Shown one piece after another: positions 2,363-26,091 of a stretch of 31,134 nt of DNA. The translations under genes were made by a program, and so were the position numbers. The first letter of the stretch is position 1, and the number at the start of each line of letters is the position of its first letter. The notes under the pieces were generated by a model. That model was not told where the DNA came from. It ran no database searches and saw nothing but the letters and a program-made list of their open reading frames with translations. The stretch spans positions 1 to 31,134 of the forward strand of contig BDTG01000044.1 of the NCBI GenBank assembly GCA_002897695.1, read 5' to 3'. This DNA is from a bacterium BMS3Abin14 (GTDB lineage Bacteria > BMS3Abin14).

Positions 2363-5167
2363 TTATCTGTTTTCCAGCATATCCCGCAGGACCTTCTGCA
2401 ATATACCACCGTGCCGGTAATATTCAACCTCCACGGGGCTGTTCAAAAGGACCCCCGCGGTAAAGGTTATGGGTTTTTCGTCCGCCCCGTCCATTCTGGC
2501 GGTTACGGTGGCCTTTCCATTGGCCGCAAGACCCTCGCCGATGCCTGTGATCTCCAGGGTTTCCTTCCCCGTAAGACCAAGGGTCTCCGTGTTTTCGCCC
2601 GACTCGAACTGAAGAGGTAAAACACCCATGCCCACAAGGTTGCTGCGGTGGATGCGTTCGAACGACTGTGCCAGGACGGCCTTCACCCCGAGGAGGAGGG
2701 TTCCCTTGGCGGCCCAATCCCTGGAGCTTCCTGCACCGTATTCCTTCCCGCCGACTACGACGAGAGGCGTATCTTCATCCTTATAGCGCATGGCGGCGTC
2801 AAAAATGGTCATCCGTTCCCCCTCGGGCATATGGAGCGTCCATCCTCCTTCCCCTTCAACCATGGCATTTTGGATACGGATGTTCCCGAAGGTGCCCCTC
2901 ATCATCACCTCGTGGTTTCCCCTCCGGGAACCGAAACTGTTGAAGTCCGAACCCTGAATCCCGTTTTCCAGGAGGTAGTGTCCGGCCGGGCTGTCATCCG
3001 GGATGGTCCCGGCAGGCGAGATGTGGTCGGTGGTCAGGGTATCTCCGAAGATCCCGAGAATACGGGCTCCCTCGATATCCCTCGGCACCGGGGGAGTGTC
3101 GGGCATGTCATCGAAAAAAGGCGGTTCCCTGATGTAGATGGAAGCCGGATCCCAGGGGAAGAGATTTGAATCCGAATCCTTCAGGGAATTCCAGAACTCG
3201 TTTCCCTCGTATATATGACTGTACGCGTCAAGGAATTTCCCTGGATCCAGGAAGGATTTAACCGTGGACAGTATCTCCTCCCGGGATGGCCATATTTCCT
3301 TAAGATATACCGGATTGCCATTGGGGTCCCGCCCCAGAGGGTCGTGGGTCATGTCAACCGTAACCGAACCGGCAATGGCGTAGGCAACCACGAGCATGGG
3401 GGATGCAAGGTAGTTCGCGCGGATGTATGGGTTGATCCGGGCCTCGTAATTCCGGTTGCCGCTCAGAACAGCCGCTGTGACGAGCTGATTCTCCTCGATG
3501 GCTTTGGCAATGCCGGCTCGCAGCGGCCCACTGTTTCCGATGCAGGTTGTGCAGCCGTAGCCCACCACGTGGAATCCCAATGCATCCAGAAACGGTGTGA
3601 GGCCTGAATCATCCAGGTAGCTTGTGACTACGCCGGAGCCGGGGGCCAGGCTGGTCTTGACCCACGGCCGGGTCCTCAGGCCCCGTTTAACCGCATTACG
3701 TGCGAGAAGTCCGGCACCGATCATGACCGATGGATTGGATGTGTTGGTACAGCTTGTTATGGCCGCGATCACAACGGATCCGTCGCAGATGGGGATCTTT
3801 GCCTGGTCCAGCTCCTCCTCAACGCAGCGGCACAACGGCCTGGGGTCCGTGGGACAGCCGCACTTCTCCGGCACCGGGTGAGAGGAACCCCCCTCATCGG
3901 CCCAATATCCGCAATCATCAAACCGGTCGGCATCGGAGGTGACCCCCGCCTCGAGCATTCGGGGAAGGGTCTCGAGAAAGGAGTCCTTCATCCCACCAAG
4001 CTTCACCCGCTGGTGAGGTTTGCTGGGACCGGCCAAAGAGGGTTCGACCTTTCCCATGTCCAGCTCATAAACCGAGGTATAGGAGGGTTCTTCGTCCGTT
4101 TCGGAGTGAAAGAGCCCCTGATGCTTTGAGTAGTTTTCGACAAGGTCGACAAGCTCCCGGGGCCTGCCGGTTGCCGAAAGGTATCGAAGTGTCTCATCAT
4201 CCACCGGAAAGAAGGCCGCGGTGGCTCCGTACTCCGGGGACATATTGGAAATCGTTGCCCGGTCGGGAAGGGTCAGGGTCCTTAACCCGGTGCCGAAGAA
4301 CTCCACAAATCGCCCCACAACACCTTTTTCCCGGAGAAATTCGGTGATGGTGAGCACAAGGTCAGTGGACGTGGACTCACTGGGAAGCCTGCCTTTTATA
4401 TTGATCCCGACAACCTCAGGTATGGGCATGTAGTATGGCTGCCCCAGGAGCACGGCCTCCGCCTCTATCCCCCCCACGCCCCATCCAAGTACGCCCAGGC
4501 CGTTTATCATCGGTGTATGGGAGTCAGTGCCTACAAGAGTGTCGGGAAAAGCGTACAATTCCCCATGGATTGTACGTGTCCCGACAACCGATCCAAGATA
4601 TTCCAGGTTGACCTGGTGGACAATCCCCGCCCCGGGGGGCACCACCCGGAGATTGGAGAAAGCCTTCTGTCCCCAATGGAGCATGGAGTAGCGTTCGGCA
4701 TTGCGCTCCGTCTCCTTCTGGATGTTGAACTCGAAGGCCTGGCCGGTTCCGAAGTGGTCCACCTGTACCGAATGGTCTATGACCATATCCGCCGGAATGG
4801 ACGGATTGATCCTGGACGGGTCCCCCCCCTTTCGTTCCATGGCAGAACGCATGGCGGCGAGATCCACCAGGGCGGGCAAACCTGTGAAGTCCTGAAGGAC
4901 CACACGTGCCGGCATGAAGGGTATGGTTCCCCCACCGCTGTTGCCAGGGCTCCACGCCGCCAGCCTCAGGACATCCTCTCGAGACACGAACTTACCCCCG
5001 GAATGTCGAAGCAGGTTTTCGAGTAGAACACGGATGGAAAAAGGAAGCCGGTCAACACCCGACACCCCCGCTCCGGAAAGAGCGCCCAGGTGGTAAATTG
5101 TATATGATTTGTCCCCTGATTTCAGGGTCTTCCTCACGTCAAAGGGGGAGAGTGCGGATGTTTTCAT
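2363..5167 (-). CDS. acnA: Aconitate hydratase A
   Basis: A 934-residue [4Fe-4S] dehydratase interconverting citrate and isocitrate in the TCA cycle. Cluster ligands are visible as Cys473 in TSCTNTSNPS and Cys539/Cys542 in GYGCTTCIGNSG. The C-terminal swivel domain carries GSSRDWAAKGTLLLGVKAV. Domain order is the AcnA/IRP type, with the swivel domain last. It is about 40 residues longer than E. coli AcnA (891). Most of the excess lies between SLAGP (377) and the first cluster cysteine, where a cysteine-rich stretch adds Cys419, 436, 438, 446, 448 and 461. The start is supported by GGGAGG eight bases upstream of ATG. It lies 159 bases downstream of fumC on the same strand, suggesting co-expression of two TCA steps. 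A second aconitase, acnB, is encoded about 9 kb away. Confidence 0.96.
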   Translation of the reverse strand: MKTSALSPFDVRKTLKSGDKSYTIYHLGALSGAGVSGVDRLPFSIRVLLENLLRHSGGKFVSREDVLRLAAWSPGNSGGGTIPFMPARVVLQDFTGLPALVDLAAMRSAMERKGGDPSRINPSIPADMVIDHSVQVDHFGTGQAFEFNIQKETERNAERYSMLHWGQKAFSNLRVVPPGAGIVHQVNLEYLGSVVGTRTIHGELYAFPDTLVGTDSHTPMINGLGVLGWGVGGIEAEAVLLGQPYYMPIPEVVGINIKGRLPSESTSTDLVLTITEFLREKGVVGRFVEFFGTGLRTLTLPDRATISNMSPEYGATAAFFPVDDETLRYLSATGRPRELVDLVENYSKHQGLFHSETDEEPSYTSVYELDMGKVEPSLAGPSKPHQRVKLGGMKDSFLETLPRMLEAGVTSDADRFDDCGYWADEGGSSHPVPEKCGCPTDPRPLCRCVEEELDQAKIPICDGSVVIAAITSCTNTSNPSVMIGAGLLARNAVKRGLRTRPWVKTSLAPGSGVVTSYLDDSGLTPFLDALGFHVVGYGCTTCIGNSGPLRAGIAKAIEENQLVTAAVLSGNRNYEARINPYIRANYLASPMLVVAYAIAGSVTVDMTHDPLGRDPNGNPVYLKEIWPSREEILSTVKSFLDPGKFLDAYSHIYEGNEFWNSLKDSDSNLFPWDPASIYIREPPFFDDMPDTPPVPRDIEGARILGIFGDTLTTDHISPAGTIPDDSPAGHYLLENGIQGSDFNSFGSRRGNHEVMMRGTFGNIRIQNAMVEGEGGWTLHMPEGERMTIFDAAMRYKDEDTPLVVVGGKEYGAGSSRDWAAKGTLLLGVKAVLAQSFERIHRSNLVGMGVLPLQFESGENTETLGLTGKETLEITGIGEGLAANGKATVTARMDGADEKPITFTAGVLLNSPVEVEYYRHGGILQKVLRDMLENR

Positions 5168-5326: not shown

Positions 5327-6709
5327 TCAGTTCCCGACCATCCCAGCGGGGTCCAGCGCCTTTTTTATCTCGTCCTCGGTGAGGATGCCCTTCTCCCTTA
5401 CAAGCTGTCTGACGGTCTTGCCCGTCAGGCCGGCCTCCTTTGCGAGCCGGGAGGCCTCGTCGTACCCTATGACCTGTGCCAGGGGAGTTATCAGGGCCAG
5501 GCTCTGTTCCACCAGCTCTTCACACCTATCTATGTTGGCTGAAATGCCGTCCACGCACTTTTTCGCCATCAGGATGGTGGTGTTGGTGATGAGGGTGAGA
5601 GACTCCATTATAACATGGGCCAGAAGGGGCATCATTACGTTAAGCTCAAGGTTCCCAGACGCGTTGGCCATGGTCACGGTCACATCGTTGCCCATGACCC
5701 TGACGGCGGCCTGCAGGGCCGATTCAGGTATGACCGGATTGACCTTGCCAGGCATTATGGATGACCCCGGCTGGAGGGCGGGGATGGCAACCTCACCTAT
5801 GCCGCAGCGGGGACCGCAGGCCAGGAACCGGATATCGGAGGCGATTTTGTAAAGGGATGAGGCATAGGCAGCCAGGGACTTGTGAAGGGAAACCAAGGCG
5901 TCCTTGCCGCCCATCGCCGCGAACCGATTGGGGGCTATGGCAAAAGGAATATCCGCTTGCGACGCGATCCGCAATACTACCAGCTCGGCGAAACGCGGGT
6001 GGCTGTTGAGGCCTGTGCCGACCGCCGTCCCGCCAAGCGGTAATTCCTCCAGATGTAAAAAGGTGTCCTCAACCGCTTCCATGGCGTGTTCGACCTGAGA
6101 GGCGTAGCCTGAAAATTCCTGCCCCAGGGTAATGGGAACCGCGTCCTGCATGTGCGTTCTGCCGACCTTGACCACACGGGAGAATTCCCTGGACCTTGCG
6201 GACAGGGAATTCTTCAGGGTCTTCAGGGCCGGAAGAAAGGATTTTCCGGCGTACTCCCTGACCGCAATATGGATGGAGGAGGGGATAACGTCATTACTGG
6301 ACTGGCCGAGATTGACGTGGTCATTGGGGTGTACGGGGGTTCTACCCTGGCGTTGGGACCCCATGATTTCGTTGGCCCTGGCCGCGATAACCTCGTTCAT
6401 GTTCATATTTGTGGAGGTGCCTGACCCGGTCTGGTAGACATCAATGGGAAACTGGCCCTGAAATTTCCCGCCCATTACCTCGGCGGCGGCATCGTCAATG
6501 GCCGAAACGACCTCTTCGGTCAGGAGGCCGAGTTCTCCATTGACCCGGGCCGCCTCTTTTTTTATCAGCGCCAGGGCGTGCAGGATCCCGTCCGGCATCG
6601 TGGTGCCAGAGACGGGGAAGTTTAGAACGGCCCTTTGGGTGGAGGCGCCGTAGTAGGCATCCTTCGTGACCATCATCTCTCCCATGGAATCGCTCACTTT
6701 AATCATCAT
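5327..6709 (-). CDS. fumC: Fumarate hydratase, class II
   Basis: A 460-residue member of the fumarase/aspartase superfamily, an oxygen-stable, cluster-free homotetramer that hydrates fumarate to malate. Conserved segments are GSGTSTNMNMNEVIA, HPNDHVNLGQSSND, GRTHMQDAVPITLGQE, GGTAVGTGLNSHP and the signature GSSIMPGKVNP. The PGKVNP form, GPRCGIGE and a C-terminus ending in GMVGN match fumarase better than aspartase (usually PAKVNP), though VNPVIPE is somewhat aspartase-like. The first of two adjacent ATG codons follows a run of eight G that can act as a Shine-Dalgarno sequence. It is probably the first gene of a fumC-acnA unit. An aspartase activity cannot be excluded from sequence alone, but fumarase is clearly favoured by motif and neighbour. 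Confidence 0.92.
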   Translation of the reverse strand: MMIKVSDSMGEMMVTKDAYYGASTQRAVLNFPVSGTTMPDGILHALALIKKEAARVNGELGLLTEEVVSAIDDAAAEVMGGKFQGQFPIDVYQTGSGTSTNMNMNEVIAARANEIMGSQRQGRTPVHPNDHVNLGQSSNDVIPSSIHIAVREYAGKSFLPALKTLKNSLSARSREFSRVVKVGRTHMQDAVPITLGQEFSGYASQVEHAMEAVEDTFLHLEELPLGGTAVGTGLNSHPRFAELVVLRIASQADIPFAIAPNRFAAMGGKDALVSLHKSLAAYASSLYKIASDIRFLACGPRCGIGEVAIPALQPGSSIMPGKVNPVIPESALQAAVRVMGNDVTVTMANASGNLELNVMMPLLAHVIMESLTLITNTTILMAKKCVDGISANIDRCEELVEQSLALITPLAQVIGYDEASRLAKEAGLTGKTVRQLVREKGILTEDEIKKALDPAGMVGN

Positions 6710-14242: not shown

Positions 14243-16837
14243 CTAGAACGCCATCGGCGTTGAGATCTCCTTCTCGAACGGCCCGACCTTTTCCCTGTAG
14301 ACAGCCCTGTATTCCTCGAGAGTCGGGATTTTTCCATCCAGTGCAGACAGGGCGGCCACGATGGATGAGCCCAGAAAGACCTGCGCTCCGGTTCCCATTC
14401 TGTTGTCAAAGTTCCTGGTGCTTGTTGATACCACAGTGGCTCCGGTGGCGACCTGGGCCTGGTTTCCCATGCACAGGGAGCATCCTGGGACATGGACGTT
14501 GGCTCCTGCCGACAGGAGGGTATGGTGCACCCCCTCGTCGGCGAGCTTCGTATTGCTCTCCCTGTCGGGTGGAACGGTCCAGAACCGCATGGACGGTGGC
14601 AGAAGTTTCCCTCCCAGGATCTTTGCCACGGCCCTGAAATCGGTGATATCCGTCATGCAGGACCCGACAAAGACCTCGTCGATGGCTGTCCCGGCCGCCT
14701 CCGAAAGGGTGACGATCTTGTCGGGATCATTGGGAGCGGCGAGGAGAGGCTCTGTGATAGTGTCAAGATCCACCTCGATGATGTCGGCGTATGGCGCTCC
14801 TTCGTCGGCCTCCATAACCTCCGGCGTCGCAAGCCACTTCTCCATAAGGTTGATTATTACCTGAATCTGTTTGGAGGGGTTCCTTTTCTTGAATGTTTCT
14901 TTCAGGAACGTAAGGTTGTTCTGAACATACTCGATTATCCTGTCGGGGTTATGCGCAAAAGTGCATGCGGCGGCGGAGCGTTCGGCGGAGGTGTCGGTGA
15001 ATTTATAGGAATCCATCACGGAAATGTGGTCAAGCCCCTGGATCTCAAGTATCCGGTCCGCAAATACGTTGACCTTGTCGTCGCCCTTCTTCAGGTTCAG
15101 CTTCCCCTGCCGGAGTGCGGCGTAAGGGATTGCGTTGACCAGGTCCCGGGCGGTGATCCCGGGCTGCACCTCCCCCTTGAAGCGGACGAGTACTGATTCG
15201 GGCATGTCGAGGGGCAGATAGCCCTGACTCCCGGCAAAAGCCACCAGGTCCGAACCGGCCGGAAAACTGATTCCGATGGGGTACCGTGTGTGGCTGTCGC
15301 CCCCGGTGCCGACGAAGTAGGGGAGTAACAGCCGGTTGCCGTTAACGTGGATGATTCCGTCGCCGGGCCGGAGCGCAATCCCACCCAGACGGTTGGTAAA
15401 GCGTGTAAGGTTGGTCTGCATGGTGGCGTCCTTGCTTCGGGGGCCGGCGGCAGTGTGACAGAAGGACTGAATATACACTGTGGCGAAATGGGTACACGCC
15501 AGCTCTTCCAGCTCCTGCCGGGTCATCTTTCCGGTGGTATCCTGGCTGAACACAATGTGCGCCTGGGGCTCAACGTACTGTCCGGGCAGGATCCCGGGAA
15601 GTCCTGCCGCCCTTCCCACCAGCTTCTGGGCCAGGGAAAATGGCTGATTTTCGGGCAGCTCGGGCTTGCCCGGCAACGTGACGGTAGGCTCTTTAACCTC
15701 CATGCCCTGTTTTGCGCACAGCTCCCTGGCGCGAACAGTCAGCTTCCTCCCGATAATCAGGAGGTTTCTTCCCCCGGATCGGGATTCCTCCATGATGGAG
15801 GGAGGGTCAACGGAAAATCGGGCGAGGACCTCGTTGGAAGCTTTTTCGGTGACCGTTCCCCTGGAAAAATCAACCTCCACAATTTTCCCCTCGAGGAGGT
15901 TCCCGGACTGGCAGCGGACAGGAATGGCCCCGCATCCACGGAGGGTGTTGAAAAAGATGGGAGCGATCTTCGAGGCCATTACGATCCCGCCGCGGCGTTT
16001 GTTCGGAGTGTGGGGAATATCGTTTCCGATCCACCAGACCAGCGAGTTGGAGGCGGATTTGCGGCTGCTTCCCGTTCCTACCACATCGCCGGCAAAAAGT
16101 ATCGGCACGCCGGGATTTTCCTTTCTTATCCCTTCCAGGCGCTGGAGAAAGTCGGTGTCGTCCGGACTGGTGGACAGCATGGACAAGGCATGAAACGGAA
16201 TGTCGTCCCGGGTGATGGCCTCCTGGGCGGGGGACAGAAAATCGGTGTTGATCTCTCCACTTGTCCTGATGATAACGCAATCGACCTTTTGGGGCACCGG
16301 CGGCATGTTCTCGAACCACCTGGCTTCGGCCCAGCTGCGTAGAATATTCTGTGCAAAGGGGTTGCCGTCCGATGCAAGTTCTGCGATTTTGGTAATCATC
16401 AGGGGGGAGATGAGAATGGTCAGTGACAGGGCTTTCGCGGCGGCGGCCGCAAGGTCCTTGCCGGCGTCGAGGGCTTCCACCATGAAGGGGATATTTGCGC
16501 CGCCTCCCATCTGCCCGAGCATTTCCACCGCATCGAGAGGGGAGATGTATCTGGATATTTTTTCGCCGTTAAGAATCCCGCCGAGAAACTCAGCCTTGAC
16601 GTAGGATGAATCGGTAACTCCGGGGGAGACCCTCTCCCGCAACATATACAAAAGGGTCTGCGCTGTGTCTTCGAGGCCCGGTTTGACCATGGCCCTGGAA
16701 TCAAGGCTGTCTGATTGCAATGCCTCACAGACAGCTTGTGTCTCCTCATCGCTCAGGGGAAGGGGAGGTATGCCTCTGGCTTCCCGCTCGTGGACAGCCT
16801 TCAGGTAGTTGTCGAAAACAGGATTTAGATCGCTCAT
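14243..16837 (-). CDS. acnB: Aconitate hydratase B
   Basis: An 864-residue bifunctional aconitase / 2-methylisocitrate dehydratase, almost exactly the length of E. coli AcnB (865). The AcnB-specific order is seen: an N-terminal HEAT-like helical domain (YLKAVHEREARGIPPLPL), then the swivel domain (GDVVGTGSSRKSASNSLVWW), then the cluster-binding core. Cluster ligands are Cys727 in FVGSCMTDITDF and Cys786/Cys789 in VPGCSLCMGNQ. It is encoded apart from acnA and fumC, next to two foldase genes on the same strand, but with its own upstream region of 204 bases that has a perfect palindrome and a good -10 box. Separate regulation of the two aconitases is therefore likely. The intrinsic terminator at 14115-14143 ends it. 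Confidence 0.97.
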   Translation of the reverse strand: MSDLNPVFDNYLKAVHEREARGIPPLPLSDEETQAVCEALQSDSLDSRAMVKPGLEDTAQTLLYMLRERVSPGVTDSSYVKAEFLGGILNGEKISRYISPLDAVEMLGQMGGGANIPFMVEALDAGKDLAAAAAKALSLTILISPLMITKIAELASDGNPFAQNILRSWAEARWFENMPPVPQKVDCVIIRTSGEINTDFLSPAQEAITRDDIPFHALSMLSTSPDDTDFLQRLEGIRKENPGVPILFAGDVVGTGSSRKSASNSLVWWIGNDIPHTPNKRRGGIVMASKIAPIFFNTLRGCGAIPVRCQSGNLLEGKIVEVDFSRGTVTEKASNEVLARFSVDPPSIMEESRSGGRNLLIIGRKLTVRARELCAKQGMEVKEPTVTLPGKPELPENQPFSLAQKLVGRAAGLPGILPGQYVEPQAHIVFSQDTTGKMTRQELEELACTHFATVYIQSFCHTAAGPRSKDATMQTNLTRFTNRLGGIALRPGDGIIHVNGNRLLLPYFVGTGGDSHTRYPIGISFPAGSDLVAFAGSQGYLPLDMPESVLVRFKGEVQPGITARDLVNAIPYAALRQGKLNLKKGDDKVNVFADRILEIQGLDHISVMDSYKFTDTSAERSAAACTFAHNPDRIIEYVQNNLTFLKETFKKRNPSKQIQVIINLMEKWLATPEVMEADEGAPYADIIEVDLDTITEPLLAAPNDPDKIVTLSEAAGTAIDEVFVGSCMTDITDFRAVAKILGGKLLPPSMRFWTVPPDRESNTKLADEGVHHTLLSAGANVHVPGCSLCMGNQAQVATGATVVSTSTRNFDNRMGTGAQVFLGSSIVAALSALDGKIPTLEEYRAVYREKVGPFEKEISTPMAF

Positions 16838-22136: not shown

Positions 22137-22165
22137 TTGACAAAAACCCTAACTAAAGTTAGATT
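22137..22165 (+). promoter_or_regulatory. Sigma-70 promoter of the cysE-isc operon
   Basis: TTGACA (22137-22142, perfect -35) is followed after 17 bases by TAGATT (22160-22165, 4 of 6 to the -10 consensus). The expected start is near 22172, giving a short leader before cysE. The palindrome in the spacer makes it a regulated promoter. Confidence 0.75.
22149..22162. promoter_or_regulatory. Rrf2/IscR-like operator inside the promoter
   Basis: CTAACT-AA-AGTTAG is a 14-bp palindrome with perfect 6-bp arms. It sits in the spacer and overlaps the first bases of the -10 box, an ideal repressor position. The CTAACTAAAGTTAG layout resembles GACTAAA-type sites of Rrf2 regulators. The operon encodes its own Rrf2 regulator (iscR), so autoregulation is likely. 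Confidence 0.65.
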
Positions 22166-22205
22166 CACCAATAACTGAATTTTCCAGTCAGGAATAGGGG
22201 GCGTC

Positions 22206-22961
22206 ATGTTTGAGACTGTCAAGGCCGACATCAGGGCCGCCAAAGAGAGGGATCCTGCATGCCGGGGCGCATTGGACGTGGTCTTCAGCTATCCTGGATT
22301 TCATGCCGTGTTCCTTCACCGAATTTCCCACCGTCTCTGGGGATGGAGGATGTTCTTTCTTGCCAGGCTTCTTTCCCATGTGGGACGGTTTTTCACCGGT
22401 ATCGAGATCCACCCCGCCGTCAGGGCCGGGAAGGGGCTTTTTATCGATCACGGCATGGGCGTCGTTATCGGTGAAACCGCTGAAATAGGTGAAAACGTTA
22501 CACTTTACCAGGGAGTGACCTTGGGTGGAGTGAGCCTGAAGAGGGAAAAACGCCACCCGACTCTCAGGGACAACGTGGTGGTCGGCGCCGGCGCCAAGGT
22601 CCTCGGGCCCTTCGAGGTTGGTGAAAACAGCCGTATCGGTTCCAACTCGGTGGTGGTCAAGGAGGTGCCGCCTAACTCCACAGTGGTGGGGATTCCCGGC
22701 AGGATCGTGGTGAAGGAGGGTAGGAACGTTGGGGAGGTTGACCTTGATCACCAGGTGATGCCGGACCCTGTCGCCCAGGCTTTTACCTGCCTTATGGAAC
22801 ATGTGAACATTCTCCATAAGCGCCTGAATGCCCTCAGCGAGAAGGAGGGCCAGGAGCAGGACAGGTTCGATGAACTCAGTTGCCGGCTTGACGATATTGT
22901 GAAGAAGTCCATCAAAAAGGCCTCAAAACCGGCCCATTCCAAAAAGGCCGGCGCCAAATGA
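22206..22961 (+). CDS. cysE: Serine O-acetyltransferase
   Basis: A 251-residue enzyme that acetylates serine with acetyl-CoA to O-acetylserine, the carbon skeleton of cysteine. After an N-terminal helical part ([22 protein letters not shown]) it has a left-handed beta-helix of hexapeptide repeats, including [26 protein letters not shown] and [11 protein letters not shown], with the catalytic His/Asp in the FIDHG segment. The C-terminus is extended by about 50 charged residues with Lys-rich end ([19 protein letters not shown]). It is the first gene of the operon, and its ATG overlaps iscR by four bases (ATGA). The pairing with iscS suggests cysteine made here feeds Fe-S assembly. Confidence 0.94.
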
Positions 22962-23422
22962 AGATTACCACCCGGGCCAGTTATACCGTTCGGGCCCTTC
23001 TTGACCTGGCCCAGAATTCGGAGAATGGGAGACCGGTCAGGCTGTCGGACATTTCCTTGAGGGAAGGGATCTCCCACGCTTATCTCGAGCAGCTGTTCAA
23101 CCAGTTAAAGAGGGTAGGGGTTGTCAAGGGGAAGAAGGGTCCCGGCGGCGGTTACGTTCTATCCCTCCCCCTCGGGGAGATCCTTATGGGCAACGTGATC
23201 CGTGCTGTGGAGGGAGATGAGAAGCTTTTCCTGTGCACAGAGGAAACAGTTGGGGAAGACTCGTGCCGCCGGTATTCCTACTGCACTACACATCATCTGT
23301 GGGAGAGGCTTTCTTCCAGGGTGCATGAATTTTTAAACTCCATTACGCTGGCGGATCTCCTTCGGGACGCCGGATATCCTGGAAAAGGCGAGGAGAGAAG
23401 GAATGCAGAGAACCTATCTTGA
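22958..23422 (+). CDS. iscR: Rrf2-family Fe-S cluster regulator IscR
   Basis: A 154-residue winged-helix transcription factor of the Rrf2 family. The N-terminus [18 protein letters not shown] and the recognition region [39 protein letters not shown] are classic. Cluster ligands are present as Cys93, Cys103 and Cys109 with THH at 111-113, but the first spacing is C-x9-C instead of the C-x5-C in E. coli IscR. The second spacing (C-x5-C) matches. It overlaps cysE by four bases and iscS by twenty, so all three are translationally linked. It probably binds the palindrome at 22149-22162, repressing the operon when Fe-S supply is sufficient. CymR-like cysteine sensing is less likely given the cysteines. 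Confidence 0.92.
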
Positions 23423-24584
23423 CCACAACGCAACAACGCCTCTGCGCACGGATGTCAGGGAGAGGATGCTCCCTTTTTTCGGAGAGCTTTTCGGAAATCC
23501 TTCCAGCGCACATTCCTTCGGCCAGGAGGTCAAGGTACATCTGGATGAGGCGCGAAACAGAATTGCCGATCAGCTTGGGGCCTCCCCCAACGAGATCGTT
23601 TTCACCAGCGGGGGGACAGAGAGCGACAATGCGGCCCTCAAAGGGGTAGCCTTTGCGGCCCAAAAGGGACACATAGTCACGACGGTGATCGAGCACCCCG
23701 CGGTCATACAGTCGGCCTCATACCTGGCAAAAAAAGGGTTCGATGTCACGTATGTGCCGGTTGCCTCCAACGGTGTGATAGACCCTGTGGAGATAAAAAA
23801 AGCCCTTCGGTCCGACACCATCCTCGTCTCCGTAATGCACGTCAACAATGAGGTGGGAACGATCCAACCGGTCCGGGAAATATCCGCCATTACCCGGGAT
23901 GCCGGGGTGTTTTTTCATACCGACGCGGTGCAGAGCTTCGGCAAGCTTCCCACGAATGTGGACGATCTTGGTGTGGACCTGTTGTCCCTGGCGGCGCACA
24001 AGATCTACGGTCCCAAGGGCGTCGGGGCGCTGTATATCCGCAAGGGAACGAGGATCGACCCCCTGATTATCGGCGGCGCGCAGGAGAAGCGGAGGCGAAG
24101 CGGGACCGAAAACGTCGCCGGGGTGGTGGGGCTGGGCGAGGCCATATTCCTCGCCGAGACGGAGAGAGAGGATGTATTCCGCCGGCTGACAACCTTCAGG
24201 AAGAGGCTTGTTGATGCCCTTCCCGAAATGATGGATGACGTTGTGATTAACGGTAGTCCCGACAATACTTTTCCCTCCACCATCAGCCTCAGTGTCGCCA
24301 GGGTGGAAGGGGAGTCCATGCTCCTTTCCCTGGATATGGAGGGAGTGGCGGTTTCTACCGGTTCGGCATGTTCCTCGGGATCACTTGAACCCTCCCACGT
24401 CCTGATGGCGATGGGGATCGACACCGTGCTTGCTCAGGGGACGCTTCGCATCAGCATGGGCCGCGGGACCACCAGGGATGAAATCGAGCTTTTCCTGGAT
24501 GTGTTCCCCCCCATCGTTGCGAGGCTCAGGGCCATGTCCCCCCTGGGGGCTAAATGGGGTGAACAGTACAGTCAGGCAAAATAA
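23403..24584 (+). CDS. iscS: Cysteine desulfurase (IscS/NifS type)
   Basis: A 393-residue PLP enzyme that converts cysteine to alanine and a persulfide sulfur on its active-site cysteine. It opens with [22 protein letters not shown] binds the cofactor, Lys200 in SLAAHKIYGPKG forms the Schiff base and Cys323 in STGSACSSGSLEPSHV is the persulfide carrier. The short loop around this Cys and RISMGRGTT mark the group I (IscS/NifS) class. GGAGAGAAGG lies just before ATG, inside the end of iscR. It supplies sulfur to IscU and MnmA encoded next. Confidence 0.96.
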   Translation: MQRTYLDHNATTPLRTDVRERMLPFFGELFGNPSSAHSFGQEVKVHLDEARNRIADQLGASPNEIVFTSGGTESDNAALKGVAFAAQKGHIVTTVIEHPAVIQSASYLAKKGFDVTYVPVASNGVIDPVEIKKALRSDTILVSVMHVNNEVGTIQPVREISAITRDAGVFFHTDAVQSFGKLPTNVDDLGVDLLSLAAHKIYGPKGVGALYIRKGTRIDPLIIGGAQEKRRRSGTENVAGVVGLGEAIFLAETEREDVFRRLTTFRKRLVDALPEMMDDVVINGSPDNTFPSTISLSVARVEGESMLLSLDMEGVAVSTGSACSSGSLEPSHVLMAMGIDTVLAQGTLRISMGRGTTRDEIELFLDVFPPIVARLRAMSPLGAKWGEQYSQAK

Positions 24585-24594
24585 GGAGAGGCAC

Positions 24595-24969
24595 ATGAGT
24601 ATGTACAGCGAGAAGGTTATGGACCATTTCCGGAATCCGCGAAACGTTGGTGAGATCGAGGATGCCGACGGGGTGGGGGAAGTGGGTAATCCAACCTGCG
24701 GGGATATCATGAAGATCTACCTGAAGGTCAAGGACGATGCTATCGAGGACATCAAGTTCCAGACCTTCGGTTGCGGTTCGGCCATAGCCACAAGCAGCAT
24801 GGTTACGGAGATGGTCATGGGAAAGAGCCTCGAGGATGCCGAGATCGTTACAAACAAGGCGGTCGCTGAGGCCCTGGACGGCCTTCCCCCGATAAAGATG
24901 CACTGTTCCAATCTTGCGGCGGACGCCCTACATGCCGCCATCAAGGATTACCGGGATAAGCACCAGTAA
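24595..24969 (+). CDS. iscU: Fe-S cluster assembly scaffold IscU/NifU-N
   Basis: A 124-residue scaffold on which [2Fe-2S] and [4Fe-4S] clusters are built. Cluster ligands are Cys35 with Asp37 (NPTCGD), Cys60 (FGCGSA) and Cys104 with His103 (KMHCSNLA). LPPIK at 97-101 is the HscA chaperone recognition motif. A longer in-frame reading to 24430 lies inside iscS and is discarded; ATG 24595 follows AAGGAG at six bases and the iscS stop overlaps that ribosome binding site. There is no hscA/hscB or fdx in this cluster. It lacks the extra NifU C-terminal domains. Confidence 0.95.
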   Translation: MSMYSEKVMDHFRNPRNVGEIEDADGVGEVGNPTCGDIMKIYLKVKDDAIEDIKFQTFGCGSAIATSSMVTEMVMGKSLEDAEIVTNKAVAEALDGLPPIKMHCSNLAADALHAAIKDYRDKHQ

Positions 24970-25020: not shown

Positions 25021-26091
25021 ATGAAATCCAGCAAAGAGACCGTTATGGTAGCCATGAGCGGTGGCGTGGATTCCTCCACTGCGGCCGCTATCCTCCTTGA
25101 GGAAGGATACAGGGTCGTAGGGATCACCATGCTGCTCTGGGCTCAGGATGTGCCCGGCCTGGAAACCGGCTGCTGCGGAACGGAAGATCTGGCCGATGCC
25201 CGGGCGGTATGCGCCTCGCTGGGCATTCGGCATTACAGCCTGGACCTGCGCAGGGAGTTCATGGCGGAAGTTGTGGAGCCGTTTGTTCGGACCTATCTGG
25301 GGGGACGAACGCCGAACCCGTGTATATTGTGCAACGAACATCTGAAATTCCGCTATCTTTTGAAAAAAGCAATGGGAATAGGCGCCGACATGCTTGCCAC
25401 GGGCCATTATGCCCGGATCGAACATGGGAGCGTCGCATACCGACTCCGGAGGGGTGTGGATCCCTCCAAGGACCAATCCTATTTCCTGTATCCCGTGGAC
25501 CAGAAAATACTCTCGCGCCTCCTGTTCCCTCTGGGAGGCCTGAGCAAGGATGCGGTTCGGGTTCACGCCAGGGATTTGGGCCTGCGGGTTCACGAGAAGC
25601 CGGACAGTCAGGAGATCTGCTTCATCCCTCCCGGCGGGCTGAAGGAATTCATCGGCAAATCAACGGATGGCAGCATGCGGCCGGGGCCGGTTGTGGACAC
25701 ATCCGGGAAGAGGATCGGCACTCATGACGGGGCCGGGTTCTACACCGTGGGGCAGAGGAAAGGGCTGGGAATCGCCGCCGGGGAGCCGTTGTATGTCGTC
25801 CGCGTCGAGGTGGAGTCCAACACCGTTGTTCTGGGGGGCAGGGATGAGGCCGCCTCGTCGTGCTTGCGGGCGAGAAGTGCCCGTTGGATCTCCGGCGTCC
25901 CGCCCTCAGGCCGATTCCGGGGGCAGGTGCAGATCCGGCACCGCCACATACCGGCAGGGGCATGGGTCCACGCCCTACCCGACAGGTCCTTTTCCGTCGA
26001 ATTTGATGAGCCTCAGCACGGTGTGGCCCCGGGCCAGGCGGCGGTGGTCTACGACGGAGAATATGTGCTTGGGGGAGGCTGGATTATTTAA
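25021..26091 (+). CDS. mnmA: tRNA-specific 2-thiouridylase
   Basis: A 356-residue ATP-dependent enzyme that puts sulfur on U34 of tRNA-Lys, Glu and Gln. The PP-loop motif SGGVDSS is at residues 13-19. Cys104 in [12 protein letters not shown] is the expected nucleophile and Cys200 in DSQEICFIP the second catalytic cysteine. GHYARI and QSYFLYP are further family motifs, and the protein ends in a beta-barrel domain. It lies 51 bases after iscU in the same operon, matching its need for IscS sulfur. The start at 25021 lacks a good ribosome binding site. A downstream ATG (Met9) after AAAGAG is an alternative, but family alignment supports either. Confidence 0.95.

Follow-up and report, generated by a model that had tools for sequence, protein, structure and literature searches.

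Five genes on one strand, cysE-iscR-iscS-iscU-mnmA, follow a predicted sigma-70-type promoter in the window, i.e., the whole stretch of 31,134 nucleotides analyzed here (Table 1). From cysE to iscU, neighboring genes overlap or are separated by about 10 bases, and the gap between iscU and mnmA is 51 bases. The first-pass annotation had described an isc-type operon encoding its own Rrf2 regulator behind such a promoter; this description stands, and the gene calls hold by family models. The operon cysE is the only match in the genome above the TIGR01172 cut-off, and the product of the operon iscU is the sole NifU_N protein detected in the source genome. A search for SUF core proteins found none in that genome, whose completeness is rated at 100%, and none in eight of the eleven other family genomes, some of which are incomplete. 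Because no SUF core protein and a single NifU_N protein were found in the source genome, the operon is probably the organism's only cluster assembly system and its regulator probably a local one. SUF core proteins occur in only 3 of the 12 family genomes (G002, G007 and G009; L068-L070), which suggests that SUF was gained or lost within the family.

Table 1. Genes and promoter elements of the cysE-iscR-iscS-iscU-mnmA locus (positions in the window).
Feature	Position	Strand	Evidence or remark
-35 hexamer TTGACA	22137-22142	+	sequence; unchanged in 8/8 intact orthologous promoters
17-bp spacer	22143-22159		between TTGACA and TAGATT
-10 hexamer TAGATT	22160-22165	+	17 bp from the -35 in all orthologues
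Site 1, secondary predicted IscR site, ATAGTTGACAAAAACCCTAACTAAA	22133-22157	+	overlaps the -35 and the spacer
Palindrome CTAACT-AA-AGTTAG of the first-pass annotation	22149-22162		regarded as a chance combination of spacer sequence and the -10 region
Site 2, main predicted IscR operator, ATAACTGAATTTTCCAGTCAGGAAT	22171-22195	+	about -1 to +24 of the predicted transcription start
cysE, serine O-acetyltransferase	22206-22961	+	TIGR01172, 240.8 bits (cut-off 210.65)
iscR-like Rrf2 regulator	22958-23422	+	Pfam Rrf2, 121.9 bits; C93, C103, C109, H112, E44/Q45
iscS/nifS cysteine desulfurase	23403-24584	+	TIGR03402, 514 bits
iscU/nifU scaffold	24595-24969	+	TIGR03419, 223 bits (cut-off 187.9)
mnmA, tRNA 2-thiouridine synthase	25021-26091	+	NF001138, 413.9 bits (cut-off 284)

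Elsewhere in the window, translations read by eye indicated two different long aconitase-like hydratases on the minus strand (14243-16837 and 2363-5167). A fumarase-like gene lies at 5327-6709. Transposase-like ORFs split in two at 202-1365, IS110-like by eye, are possibly a decayed element.

The inclusion of cysE and mnmA in one isc unit had been called a compact arrangement. In three relatives with longer DNA, mnmA still lies 3′ of iscU, at a distance of 250-790 bases, and the membership of mnmA in the unit is therefore firmest for the window. Those longer gaps (L061-L063) hold no clear conserved gene. Nor is the arrangement unusual, as Clostridium perfringens has an Rrf2-iscS-iscU-trmU cluster, cpe1786-1783 (PMC2940859). 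The four genes and their order are shared with the window, and that genome has no suf genes; in contrast, its cysE is located elsewhere, with cysK under a T-box, and its regulator is nearer to CymR. A distant genome of another family (L011) carries an IscR-like gene and iscS immediately after cysE, with no recognizable type 1 site. Among the papers searched, none on cysE beside isc genes was found. In Azotobacter vinelandii and in Pseudomonas, cysE presumably stands ahead of the isc genes.

The regulator, which is encoded together with Fe-S assembly genes, shares 42% identity with E. coli IscR, and IscR structures were its top structural matches, the best solved one being 4hf0. Its score against the IscR model TIGR02010 was 136.1 bits, under the cut-off of 207.55 yet the best of all NCBI families, compared with 75.6 bits against the CymR model. 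We thus call it IscR-like, short of a certified IscR. The alignment shows a winged helix with an Lx3Gx6Gx2GGx2L wing motif and pairs C93, C103, C109 and H112 with the E. coli cluster ligands C92, C98, C104 and H107, and E44 and Q45 with E43 and Q44; the DNA-reading residues of the two proteins thus align as well as their cluster ligands. All these residues are invariant in the family, the four ligands in nine members. The regulator differs from its E. coli counterpart by a longer loop between the first two Cys ligands (nine residues versus five) and by a Lys in place of R59.

Twelve genomes of the source organism's family, including its own, were searched for orthologues, and nine of them have an orthologous regulator with an adjoining cysE orthologue. 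The promoter comparison covers eight of these nine, from seven genera, the cysE start of the ninth being lost in unread bases. TTGACA is identical in all eight, with a G directly 5′ of it, and the spacer is 17 bp throughout; the -10 reads TAGATT, TAAATT, TAAGTT, TAAATA or TATATA. The -35, spacer and -10 are as the first-pass annotation had described them. A scan based on the consensus returned 4 such promoters in 8.5 kb against 3.7 expected, so that the call rests on conservation rather than on the match to consensus. Because the same spacing is kept in eight genomes, the element is more than chance, and we take TTGACA-17-TAGATT upstream of the cysE start codon to be a real promoter of the sigma-70 type.

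Five bases past the -10 begins a 25-bp block, site 2, that is conserved in all eight promoters, with the consensus AAAACCAAACNTTCAAGTCGGGAAT. Of its 25 positions, 20 agree with the type 1 consensus of E. coli IscR, ATASYYGACTRWWWYAGTCRRSTAT (PMC3899308), the best score in the window, the next best being 18. When the 166-bp upstream region was shuffled 20,000 times, matches of at least 20/25 arose 3 times (P = 1.5e-4). Since 2 of 60 shuffles of the whole window also attained 20/25, the score by itself does not single out site 2 in 31 kb beyond doubt; what does so is that the site is conserved and stands in front of the operon encoding the regulator. With a matrix built from the six other genera, leaving out that of the window, site 2 ranked first at 22.5 bits, followed by a site at 14.1.

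The two halves of site 2 are not equally kept. The right half is strongly conserved across the orthologues; the left half is also kept but, in six of the seven genera, is AACCAAWC-like instead of YYGACT, and the type 1 scores drop to 14-17/25. When up to 3 mismatches to the strict E. coli consensus were allowed, none of the 12 family genomes yielded a site, and the family's sites are therefore always imperfect type 1 matches. We looked for a wider regulon with the site 2 profile (E up to 5), which gave exactly one match per genome in 9 of the 12 family genomes; as these matches are members of the profile or identical to one, the informative result is the absence of further sites in these genomes. 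Eight of the matches lie at the cysE promoter and the ninth at a contig end, in a genome in which the regulator was not found.

Site 1 overlaps the promoter in register with the -35 and scores 17/25 against the type 1 consensus. The mean score over the eight orthologues was 16.9, compared with 12.5 ± 0.7 for a null in which TTGACA was fixed and the flanks and spacers were shuffled; none of 2,000 such sets reached it, a count that is no true probability as the sequences compared are related. In two relatives (G008 and G005), site 1 scores 18 and 20, better than in the window. Some IscR-like genes of other groups (L012, L013 and L016) have sites of 18-19/25 about 40 bases 5′ of the gene.

The closest parallel is the iscR promoter of Pseudomonas aeruginosa, which has two type 1 sites, A and B (PMC3899308, PMC6599224). 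Both were footprinted; the principal IscR site is B (ATAGTTGACCTAATTACTCGGATAA, -42 to -18), on which repression depends, site A being weaker (PMC6599224). Their reported matches of 68% and 76% (PMC6599224) correspond to 17 and 20 of 25 in our count, a level that site 1 (17) and site 2 (20) reach as well. Both promoters thus have two 25-bp type-1-like sites with a similar degree of match, one of them over the -35 with ATAGTTGAC, and an isc operon 3′. The position of site 1 resembles that of site B, which binds IscR and represses. In contrast to P. aeruginosa, the better site of the window lies over the transcription start instead of within or 5′ of the -35 region, and the centers of the two sites are 38 bp apart rather than 25. 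On this sequence evidence, the regulator probably binds site 2, just downstream of the small palindrome, and probably also the weaker site 1.

The first-pass annotation had instead proposed that palindrome, CTAACT-AA-AGTTAG, as the IscR operator. It is present as read and overlaps the spacer and the -10, a usual location for a repressor. Its right arm, AGTTAG, joins the last bases of the spacer to the first of the -10 and is conserved because it is part of the -10 region: mean information over the eight promoters was 1.61 bits per column in the right arm, compared with 0.77 in the left arm, 0.92 in the whole spacer and 0.45 in the upstream flank. The left arm reads CTAAGT in the same genus, where one base breaks the repeat, and is unrelated in other genera. 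When the 166-bp upstream region was shuffled by dinucleotides, 33% of the shuffles contained a perfect inverted repeat with 6-bp arms and a gap of 0-8 bp, and the window contains 8-12 inverted repeats of this kind per gap length. The exact 14-base pattern is found only once in the genome and thus marks no regulon. Nor do its arms, spaced as they are, conform to GAC-N7-GTC, the core found in the type 1 sites of E. coli and the RisR sites of Myxococcus. The palindrome therefore looks like a product of chance, and it is extremely unlikely to be the operator. The annotation had itself named lack of conservation upstream of orthologous operons as grounds for refutation; the palindrome is not conserved there, and by that standard its role as operator is refuted. 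What survives of that proposal is an operator in this promoter, placed by our analysis at site 2 and, with a weaker prediction, at site 1.

Other explanations concern the nature of the conserved block and the identity or signal of the regulator. Site 2 stops 7-13 bases 5′ of the start codon, in GGAAT, near the Shine-Dalgarno position, and part of its conservation may serve translation. That the whole block is a leader element for translation or RNA structure, with no protein site, is nevertheless unlikely: the eight leaders have no common RNA fold, the leader has no Rfam match, a separate AGGGGG is present in the window, and the conserved AAGTC and AACC parts are dispensable for ribosome binding. 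A CymR-like regulator sensing the cysteine supply, with the operon as a cysteine regulon, would suit a unit that begins with cysE and would recall the C. perfringens Rrf2-iscSU-trmU genes, whose expression rises under cysteine limitation (PMC2940859). We regard this reading as quite unlikely, as the IscR model fits the regulator better than the CymR model does (136 versus 75.6 bits) and the cluster-ligand residues are invariant in its family. Control of the cysE promoter by the genome's other Rrf2 protein is very unlikely. This protein is 40% identical to the operon regulator and keeps the three cysteines, but its gene is far off, adjoining a larE-like gene, and the family site was found nowhere but at the operon of the nearer regulator. 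The second gene itself (G000:C33:9737-10150; L032:2738-3151, minus strand), IscR-like and next to the gene of a larE-like sulfur transferase, is conserved across the family.

We thus consider it rather likely, from the sequence comparisons, that this is an autoregulated isc-type operon promoter, with the IscR-type regulator at site 2 and probably also at site 1. We infer a mechanism in which RNA polymerase would use TTGACA-17-TAGATT to start near position 22172, transcribing the genes together. A dimer of the regulator carrying an Fe-S cluster would bind the type-1-like site over the transcription start, with a weaker second contact probable over the -35, and the promoter would be blocked; by analogy with known systems, such repression by cluster-loaded IscR is likely. 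When clusters are scarce or oxidized, the regulator would lose its active cluster and leave the DNA, and this release would allow cysE, iscR, iscS, iscU and, at least in the window's genome, mnmA to be made.

IscR autoregulation through type 1 sites is already known in E. coli and P. aeruginosa. The system described here shares with that of E. coli the type 1 consensus and the aligned counterparts of the four cluster ligands and E43, and differs in that the operon begins with cysE, with no SUF core and apparently a one-operon regulon. In Myxococcus xanthus, Fe-S assembly genes are likewise repressed by an Rrf2 protein, RisR, whose site has a GAC-N7-GTC core; RisR belongs, however, to a separate Rrf2 subgroup, is encoded in a suf operon and controls both isc and suf (PMC9973013). 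Somewhat unusual are the asymmetry of site 2 in most genera and its placement over the start. It is conceivable, and we propose it tentatively, that the regulator of this family reads an asymmetric type 1 site (AACCAA on one side, AAGTCGGGAAT on the other) over the start of one operon only, the genome's sole cluster assembly system, through which tRNA thiolation would be set together with cluster assembly and the synthesis of cysteine.

These results correct where to look for the regulator and illustrate that a palindrome overlapping a -10 can mislead if read from a single sequence. They also supply an operator prediction for a family of uncultured bacteria, some of whose genomes appear to have the isc-type operon as their sole cluster assembly system; the remaining biology is as expected from known isc operons.
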